This document shows, piece by piece, positions 47,136-50,029 of a stretch of DNA of 64,000 nucleotides (position 1 is its first letter; every line of letters starts with the position of its first letter). The translations under genes were made by a program, and so were the position numbers. The notes below the pieces were generated by a model. The model worked only from the letters and a program-made list of their open reading frames with translations, did no database searches and had not been told where the DNA came from. The stretch comes from Polytrichum commune (Eukaryota > Streptophyta > Polytrichopsida > Polytrichales > Polytrichaceae): assembly GCA_950295325.1 (NCBI GenBank), contig OX485805.1:26151501-26215500 (forward strand), written 5' to 3'.

Positions 47136-47143
47136 ACACATAT

Positions 47144-47429
47144 CTCGGGGGGTTCACTGGCGAAAATCGTAGAACAACGTGCGATAAAAAATAGGGTCCA
47201 ATATATTCATTGTAGATAAATTTTGTAAAAAATGTACATGTAAAATAGGGGATTTTAAAATAATGAAACATGTTTACATGTAAAATACCATCACATATAA
47301 TATTTTCAGGCTTTTCACATGTAAAATACCATTATCTTATAATCTATTCTGCAAGGTAAATAACCCCCCCAATAAATAGGTCCCGAACGCACGTGTATGC
47401 AAAATATAAGAGGGAGTGAACCCCCCGAG
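47144..47429. mobile_element. MITE, CTCGGGG family, with perfect 8-bp target duplication
   Basis: Inverted ends CTCGGGGGGTTCACT (15 bp, exact). ACACATAT is repeated exactly at 47,136-47,143 and 47,430-47,437. 286 bp, no ORF. Shares ends and internal motifs (ACCCCCCCAATAAATA near the right end) with 56,173-56,974. Confidence 0.93.
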
Positions 47430-47781
47430 ACACATATGGATGAGGAGAGAGAGTTTTTACGACATGTCATCCACCAACATATAAACTTGACCCCCTATAG
47501 GTTTGTTGCCGATTCATCTCAAATGACTTTGAGCACATTAATACAAGATTTTGAAAGTTAATTCCGGTGTCAAATCAAAGCCTCCGGGTTGCATATAATT
47601 TTCAAGGCTTCTATGTTAGATGAATGAACGTACGCTCGTATGTGATAATTCCCTCTCTCTGATGGACGAGAAGGTGTCATGAGACTTCAATATTCACTTG
47701 GGAGAGTCAAAATGTGCTAATTTTTTGGTGATGTTCTAAATTTAAAAGTAATACACTGAAAATCCCAACTAGTGTGTGTTA

Positions 47782-49372
47782 CAGTTTACAAACAAAATTG
47801 AGTACGTTGTACATAAACTCAACTTTGGCTCCCATTGTTAGCCAATTCAAATCAAAAAACAAAATGATCAAGTGATCAAGTGATCAAAGCAAGAGTCCAA
47901 GTAATCAATTGCATAAATGTGAAACCAAAAAGGAAGAAAGGTTTAGGGTTGTCTAAAACAAAAAATGTTGAAGTGGTTAGGGTTATATTACTCGTTTTTG
48001 TTCGCTAACGCTCTTCCAACATCGACATCTCTATATGCATTGCGTAGTCGAGAACGTCGTGAAATTTCTTGTGCAATGTGTAGCCTTGGTTCCATAGTAT
48101 GTGAGGTGCAATTTGTAGAATCGTTTGTAGCCGTATGCCTCCATTATCTCAAGATCAGAAGCATCAAACTTTGGTGCAACTTAGAAGTAACATTTCTACT
48201 CGCAAAGTTGCCACTTTAATGGGCATGAGCCAATCTTTTGTAGTGCATCTAAGGAAGGATGTAGGGGGCGAGATTGAGAGACAAAGAGGATGGCGTCCAA
48301 AGCTTCTTGTAGACTGAGAGAGAAGGCCTTGTGTCACTCTTGCAACTGAAGGTTGACTTGGAACTGCTTTGCAACAACAAAACAACTTCGATCTAAAACC
48401 CATAAATTGTTGTTTGACATCATTGTGAGGCGTGCTTTGAGAGAGGTTGGATTGGATGCACAAGTGTAAAAGAGGAAGCCATTTTTGAGTCGTAATCATG
48501 TTGTCGCACGCCTAAGGTTTGCTCAAAGGTATGAAAATTGGACCATTGATGATTGGAGACACGTGATTTTCAATGACAAGACAAAGATAAATAGGTCTAA
48601 CTCATGTAATGGGTCATGGTGTTGGATTGGAGATGGAGAACGCGTTGACATGTCCATCAAACCGTGAAGCATAGTGGTGGATCGGTGATGATTTGGGGAT
48701 GCATAACAACTTTTGGGCCGGGGGCATGGTACAGAATTGAAGGTAGGATGGATGGGCATTTGTACAAACTTATTTTAGAAAAAATCTTGTGGTCCACTAT
48801 ACAATATTACAATCTAGATTCAGGTAGGTTGGTCTTCCAACAGGATAATGATCCAAAGCACACAAGCAAGATCATGCAAGAACGGTTGGCATCACAACCA
48901 TTTCAACTTCTTCAATGGCATGCACAACGTCTGGATTTGGATCTCATTGAACACTTTTGGGCACTTCTCAAACAACGCTTGAACAAATTTACAACACCTC
49001 CAAGAGGTATCCAAGAATGTTGGGAGTGTGTGTGTTTAGTGAATCCTGATTCCAATGAGCATGATTGCATGCTACTTTATGAGAGCATGCCATGAAGAAT
49101 TGACGTTGTGTTGAAGAGTAGGGGTTAATGGACCAATTACTAAAAAAATTGTAGGCAACTTGAACAGAACCGAGTATTTGTGTATAGTTTCTCATTTGGC
49201 TTTGCAACATACTTTCTTACTATCAATGTAATGTGAATTTTTGCACACATGTGCACAAGTTTGTGCAGTATCATATCCAATTTTCAAATGTGAAAAAAAA
49301 AACTATGAACTGTTCATGGTTGCCTGTTGAAGGCGAGTTTCTTCAAAGTGTACTCAATTTTGTTCGTAACTG
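47782..49372 (+). mobile_element. Complete Tc1-type DNA transposon, 1,591 bp
   Basis: TA stands outside both ends (47,780-47,781 and 49,373-49,374). The termini start CAGTT, the Tc1 signature, and the inverted ends share AACAAAATTGAGTAC with further matches inward to AAACTC. Size and architecture are those of Tc1 elements, with one central transposase region on the plus strand. The ends are well kept but the coding region is broken, so it is non-autonomous now. Confidence 0.95.
48135..49095 (+). pseudogene. Tc1-type (DD34E) transposase, decayed
   Basis: The N-terminal part carries a helix-turn-helix region (QKHQTLVQLRSNISTRKVA) and RGWRPKLL, like Tc1 DNA-binding domains. The catalytic part shows the first D in HVIFNDKTKINRS, then VMIWGCI, then the second D in FQQDNDPKHTS, and the E in DLIEHFWALLKQRLN. 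There are 34 residues between the second D and the E, which is the DD34E spacing of Tc1, not the DD39D of the plant mariner-like elements. The frame is interrupted by stops near 48,316 and 48,469 and by at least one shift near 48,660, so no full protein can be made. The usual proline motif before the E is altered (RLDLDLIEH). Confidence 0.95.
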
Positions 49373-49374
49373 TA

Positions 49375-50029
49375 CTACTCAAAATTACACAATGCTATAA
49401 CCATTCAACGAGAATGCACTATTTTACCAAGAAAGGTCAGTTTGTTCTATAATGTCCGAACAACCTATGGAACTTTGGTTAGTAAAAATTGAACTCTCAA
49501 GTAAGACATTGTTATACTTTGTAACTCCGAATAGTAAGATGCAGTCATTGGGAGAATCGGTGTAGTTATCCATGTGTCTCAGGTGAATGTTATTTCTTAA
49601 TCAGGAATATAATCTGATACTAACTTAGGGTCTCAATGGAGGTGCATCTAAAACAATATCCACCCAAAGTGGTCTATTCCTTCTTTGTAAATATAGACGC
49701 AGAAGTTATATATACATGTGTACCCTAAAACCACGTGCCGGTCTATAGGGGTTAACTTCAATTAACGATGTCACCACCTCCCACCATTCTTTGTAGTGAA
49801 CGTATTTTTTCTCTCTATATTTGTAGTGAATGTAGTGAATATATTTCTTAATAAAGTACCTTGATTATGGTAAATAGTGTGCATGACTTTTTAGAGCCCC
49901 ATGGTGGAGAGAGGGAGAGAGTGTACCTCTCATTCGTCCAACATGAAAGCCTTGAAATAGTATGCATCTTGGAGGTTATTATTGTTGGTTTATTTGATAT
50001 CATATTTTAGCTTTCAAGAGTTTGACTTA
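49375..50029. other. No gene seen
   Basis: Positions 49,380-49,560 match, reversed, 41,660-41,850. The rest is unremarkable AT-rich sequence. Confidence 0.5.

Follow-up and report, generated by a model that had tools for sequence, protein, structure and literature searches.

The window analysed here is a stretch of 64,000 nucleotides from the moss Polytrichum commune. It holds what we take, from frames recognised by eye, to be a COBRA-like gene at about 36.5 to 39.3 kb. Three light-harvesting exons of the same genome were compared with the chains of solved structures. The first of these exons scored 375-377 bits with chains 4 of 7xqp, 7ksq and 8htu (other chains reached at most 325 bits), and the second (LHCII) had 8htu and 7xqp as its top matches, behind the multi-domain chain 9vfj_2. 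The third scored 363-365 bits with chains 9 of 7xqp and 8htu, other chains being at 239 bits or less with the exception of several multi-domain 9vfj chains at 232-375 bits. Chain 9 of 7xqp and 8htu is presumably Lhcb9, and Lhcb9 is not known outside mosses. According to the accessible parts of the published descriptions, 7XQP is from Physcomitrium patens and includes Lhca2b (PMC12589708), 7KSQ and 8HTU are labelled PpPSI, and PpPSI-L binds one Lhcb9 (PMC10005731). On these matches, a moss is the most likely host. An unusually large array was also seen at G000 C5:1751760-1846160, where fourteen equally scoring matches to light-harvesting genes lie within 95 kb. Rfam and tRNA scans across the window gave no matches.

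The remainder of this analysis concerns a transposon copy that interrupts a repeat at 47752-49565. Its features are listed below, where L029 is a related locus of the same genome.

47752..47781, + strand: left part of the target repeat of about 220 bp, starting TACACTGA...; joined flanks align unbroken to repeat copies
47780..47781, no strand: left target-site TA, which occurs once in the uninterrupted repeat copies shown
47782..49372, + strand: Tc1-like (DD34E) transposon, full length at 1,591 bp but no longer able to code for a transposase
47782..47826, + strand: left terminal inverted repeat, starting CAGT, pairing with 49328-49372
48135..49143, + strand: what remains of the transposase gene, from ATG to TAA; homologous throughout to the open 338-aa L029 transposase, with two frame shifts and five in-frame stops
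48135..48368, + strand: N-terminal helix-turn-helix part, element frame 3, two stops (HTH_23 E=0.046, below cut-off)
48374..48649, + strand: segment in frame 2 with one stop, covering the last part of the second helix-turn-helix (HTH_Tnp_Tc3_2; E=0.0022, below cut-off) and the first catalytic D, within FND
48649..49140, + strand: DDE domain in frame 1 with two stops; 34 residues separate the second D, in QQD, from the E, in IEH (residue count, Pfam and structure match)
49328..49372, - strand: right terminal inverted repeat, finishing ACTG, pairing with the left end
49373..49374, no strand: right target-site TA, flanking the element
49375..49565, + strand: right part of the interrupted repeat of about 220 bp, finishing ...CGGTGTAG (genome search and joined-flank alignment)

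In the window the element starts with CAGTTTACAAAC, finishes with GTTCGTAACTG and has TA on both sides, and the TA duplications claimed in a preliminary description of this DNA lie exactly at 47780-47781 and 49373-49374. The CAGTT termini and inverted ends of about 40 bp claimed there were recovered as well, as CAGT...ACTG. The inverted ends are imperfect: their pairing spans 45 bp with a one-base gap per arm, and within the ungapped 40-nt core complementarity is 78%. The end-to-end pairing score was 23.5, a value that 2,000 spacing-matched draws from the window never reached. Since the best random draw (21.0) came near the observed value, the stronger proof comes from the 29-base left end of the family, which was found at 45 genome sites with at most 3 mismatches, against 0 for the reversed control. 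The element had been called complete, which holds for its length of 1,591 bp but not for its coding capacity. Furthermore, the impression that its ends are better kept than its coding region was not borne out. When the window copy was compared with 25 other aligned copies, identity was 77.6% and 79.2% for the two 40-bp ends and 84.1% for the coding region, although the second end figure is lowered by two right-end forms among the copies. These forms, ...GTTCGTAACTG and ...TTGTTCGTCAGTG, were told apart by eye among the 26 copies and suggest two subfamilies.

Three segments of the window copy align to L029 (48114-48368, 48374-48649 and 48649-49140, in frames 3, 2 and 1), and its longest forward frame is 148 aa. 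The window fragments stay under the Pfam cut-offs, with 19.8 of 28.6 bits for DDE_3 and 18.7 of 31.5 for HTH_Tnp_Tc3_2. The open relative L029 is above the cut-offs for both profiles and just short for HTH_23 (24.1 of 24.6), and representatives of three other families of the same genome, B, C and E, also exceed the cut-offs for HTH_Tnp_Tc3_2 and DDE_3. The element had been credited with one transposase bearing FNDK, QQDNDPKHTS and IEHFW motifs and a 34-residue spacing; the triad and the spacing hold, but a continuous gene does not, as the remnant runs through three frames with five in-frame stops, FNDK being read in one of these frames and QQDNDPKHTS in another. With two frame shifts and five stops, the window copy is therefore dead. 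Taken together, we put the probability that 47782-49372 is a decayed copy of a Tc1-family (DD34E) cut-and-paste DNA transposon at about 97%, and no counter-evidence to this class was found.

The borders were examined through the flanking DNA. With the 1,082-base left flank as query, no empty site was found, and a MITE accounted for 39 of the 41 matches (best 40 of 4,168 candidates scored). Shorter flanks without this MITE revealed the interrupted repeat and, through it, the empty site. From the TA onward, the right flank is a high-copy repeat, whose copies made up 40 of 42 genome matches (best 40 of 2,434 candidates). The window flanks were joined without the element and one TA, and this query was aligned to 10 fetched copies out of 13 whose match begins at the border. 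The joined flanks crossed the junction unbroken in all 10 (78-82% identity over about 200-228 columns), reaching at most from window position 47752 to 49565. The related empty form of the target is thus present in the genome: the insertion took place at a TA belonging to one copy of the repeat of about 220 bp, and since the joined flanks match the uninterrupted repeat elsewhere, the borders are real insertion borders. This repeat starts with TACACTGATTATCCCAA and in several of the copies shown ends with the inverse of TACACTGATTATCCCAA; because of these inverted ends it looks like a MITE, and by appearance it predates the insertion.

Two further repeats lie to the left. The MITE at 47144-47429 is 286 bp long, has 15-bp perfect inverted ends (CTCGGGGGGTTCACT) and is flanked by the 8-bp repeat ACACATAT (47136-47143 and 47430-47437), a hAT-type pattern. 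It is young and abundant, with 39 scored genome matches at 93-98% identity and 4,168 first-look candidates for the query that contains it. The second of them, at 47467-47661, is about 195 bases long and likewise high-copy; it showed 75-80% identity to its scored matches and had 2,757 first-look candidates.

A search of the genome with the element DNA gave at least 44 matches (best 40 of 164 candidates), which fall in at least 40 places and include every one of the seven large contigs; the element is multi-copy and resident in its host. The alignment comprised 26 of the 27 near-full-length rows from this search, with lengths of about 1,540-1,600 bp as obtained by extension to the query ends. 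TA was present at the left end of 21, at the right end of 24 and at both ends of 20 of the 26 aligned copies; the six copies with TA missing at one end or both include L009, whose fetched stretch stops short of the right end. Pairwise identities were 82.5-87.1% with no close pairs, and the divergence was star-like, with a mean K2P distance of 0.171 and a standard deviation of 0.012 over 325 pairs. A full forward frame was absent from all 26 copies examined, among which the longest forward frame has 188 aa (L003); an open frame of 338 residues is present in the related locus L029, which we assign to a family of its own, A2. Divergence at codon positions 1, 2 and 3 was 0.155, 0.151 and 0.150. 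Equal divergence at the three positions, together with the lack of close pairs, is what one old burst followed by neutral decay would leave. The burst would be very roughly 9 million years old if 1% per million years applies, a figure obtained as half of 0.171 at Liu and Yang's rate for Physcomitrella rather than at a rate of the host.

The class of the element was examined by comparison with solved structures, by residue counts and by a tree. The 148-aa fragment of the window copy matched Sleeping Beauty at E=3.2e-25 and Mos1 at only 0.84, and a family B member (L030) matched them at 2.5e-46 and 1.9e-6. The distance from the second D to the E was exactly 34 residues in 33 of 34 moss loci. The D, D, E triad was kept in 20 of these loci and had lost at least one residue in 10, while in the remaining 4, the window copy among them, the segment used stops short of the first D. 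The spacing was 39 in three DD39D elements found in this genome, of which L156 has N as the third residue. The tree contained 36 of 38 rows (L160 and L167 were dropped, their D-E stretch being scrambled); Sleeping Beauty was its sole outside Tc1-like sequence, its root was a midpoint, and viral-contig relatives (13 loci) and prokaryote relatives (best 80 of 360) were left out. DD39D and all DD34E rows were split at 100/100, with the window element outside DD39D, and support was 100/98 for the window family (10 rows) and 100/100 for the window family with A2 (15 rows). Sleeping Beauty was placed amid the moss rows beside family E (98/96), with long branches and under midpoint rooting, and therefore the moss DD34E elements do not form a single lineage on this tree. 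The claim that a plant carries a Tc1-like element of the DD34E type was thus upheld by the third residue, the spacing and the match to Sleeping Beauty. The PF01359 profile gave no match anywhere, controls included, and is thus uninformative.

Several other explanations were weighed against these data. DD39D is the usual plant type of mariner-like element and is present in the same genome, and one could suppose that such an element had been mistaken for DD34E. This is extremely improbable and was rejected by direct residue count, which gives E as the third residue and a spacing of 34, not 39; the ends, moreover, are CAGT, not CTCCCTCC, and the tree separates the two types at 100/100. Contamination, in which the element would sit on foreign animal, fungal or protist DNA in the plant assembly, might be suspected for a DD34E element, as this type is better known from animals and fungi. 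However, each of the seven large contigs carries the element, at no fewer than 40 places in total, and the repeat that it splits is itself dispersed over the same contigs, and on the grounds of this dispersal and the related empty site we consider contamination next to impossible. The viral and prokaryote relatives were distant (22-45% identity), from collections that hold no eukaryotes and are thus silent on animals and fungi. A long-lived relic whose triad is still recognisable could also be expected if a host gene had been domesticated from the transposase for a co-opted function. We give hardly any weight to this possibility and rejected it because the frames are broken (the window copy has two frame shifts and five stops, and no forward frame in any of 26 copies exceeds 188 aa) and because of the neutral pattern of equal divergence at the three codon positions.

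For the decayed Tc1-family copy that we prefer, the following history may be proposed. The intact ancestor would have encoded a transposase of about 338 residues, whose two N-terminal helix-turn-helix domains would have bound the CAGT-type inverted ends, and whose RNase-H-like D,D,E domain would have excised the element and inserted it at a TA, duplicating that dinucleotide. This chemistry is inferred from Tc1, Sleeping Beauty and Mos1. In the present case the target was a TA inside a copy of the high-copy repeat of about 220 bp. The family multiplied by one burst in ancestors of the moss host, and the window copy and the 25 other aligned copies have since decayed as neutral DNA.

The window family, which we call A (names A to F are our own), is accompanied by other Tc1/mariner families in the same genome. 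The 148-aa query gave at least 150 genome matches (best 150 of 601 candidates), among which we distinguished, in addition to A2 (L029), family B (L030-L033 and L038), family C (L034, L035, L037 and L048), family D (L036, L039 and L040), the long-inverted-repeat family E (L042-L044) and a set F (L169-L173), which may hold more than one clade. Family B had six matches that were full-length or nearly so, at 95-100% to the query, and family C had ten such matches at 92-100%, the query being included in each case. Full-length matches in B and C were 92-98% identical to the query copy, several copies were open or nearly open, some with open frames of about 340 residues, and both families are younger than A. 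Members of A2, B and C carry TA and CAGT ends or one-base variants of these. In family E, the inverted repeat of L042 is 221 bp long and that of L043 consists of two blocks of 303 and 270 bp; both loci have TACAGT outer ends and group with Sleeping Beauty in the tree.

DD39D-type elements were observed as well. L155, L156 and L158 have open frames of 480, 517 and 452 aa, L156 with N as the third residue. Their inverted ends, of the CTCCCTCCGT type, are flanked by TA and match at 20/20, 18/20 and 19/20 positions. The profile PF24964 (DD39D-type plant mariner) had 15 genome matches. In its accessible text, a 2020 survey gives no DD39D-type elements from Bryophyta (PMC7325037). L041 and L045 represent a further DDE_3 transposase group, unlike the DD34E and DD39D sets; L041 has a DNVSFHKS motif and, by eye, a K at the expected last acidic residue, and a Tc3-type HTH was not found in it.

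The stratified DD34E families (A, which is dead, and A2, B, C, D, F and E), together with DD39D, suggest repeated entry of Tc1/mariner elements into mosses, in which case the two families of Physcomitrium would be a small sample of a moss-wide story; we regard the chances of this as even. PpTc1 of Physcomitrella, as far as the consulted text of Liu and Yang 2014 goes, is 1,584 bp long, encodes 338 aa and has 75 full-length copies; PpTc1 and PpTc2 both have CAGT ends, TA and DD34E, and relatives, mostly fragmentary, were reported from nine angiosperms (PMC4054914). In the available part of Vendrell-Mir et al. 2020, PpTc1 and PpTc2 are both transcribed and nearest to fungal elements, and transfer from fungi was proposed (PMC7466625), and the part of a third at hand describes a Pleurotus family 71% identical to the moss element Mariner2_PPa over 71% of its length (PMC4905642). 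The preliminary description had spoken of an under-described plant Tc1 lineage; a plant DD34E element outside DD39D it is, but not a new lineage, since PpTc1 and PpTc2 were already described in moss. Fungus-moss transfer has likewise been proposed in print, so that both the lineage and the idea of transfer had precedents. For its host this copy is ordinary, being a dead member of a Tc1-like kind known from mosses.

As to its ultimate origin, horizontal transfer from a fungus rather than inheritance from early land plants is compatible with the reading as a decayed Tc1-family copy, and we rate it at slightly less than an even chance. Published trees, in the parts accessible, group Tc1/mariner elements of Physcomitrella with fungal elements (PMC7466625, PMC4905642), and our DD34E families fall in separate lineages, with family E beside Sleeping Beauty; however, that grouping involves long branches and a midpoint root. 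The decayed copy adds one old dead family to the Tc1-like elements of mosses and little otherwise. Several DD34E families of different age together with DD39D in one moss are the more interesting lead, and with such a set the published idea that elements passed repeatedly between fungi and mosses can be tested by comparing moss genomes.

Among known systems, Sleeping Beauty, a Tc1-like element of fish (PDB 5cr4), resembles the window element in its catalytic domain, the only part compared, with its D,D,34,E, and differs in host and sequence. The PlantMar elements (DD39D) share the superfamily, the TA target, the inverted ends and the single transposase, but their third residue is D, their spacing is 39 and their ends are of the CTCCCTCCGT type. 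Mariner2_PPa of Repbase is likewise a Tc1-mariner element of a moss and is reported to be close to a Pleurotus element (PMC4905642, accessible part). PpTc1 and PpTc2 of Physcomitrium patens share with the window family a moss host, a TA target, CAGT...ACTG ends and DD34E. By length and frame size, on which the comparison was made, PpTc1 has 1,584 bp and a frame of 338 aa, and the window family about 1,540-1,600 bp, with 338 aa in its relative L029. The PpTc copies are on average about 96% alike and some are open, according to the available text (PMC4054914), whereas in the window family identity between copies is 82.5-87.1% and all 26 copies have lost their open frame.
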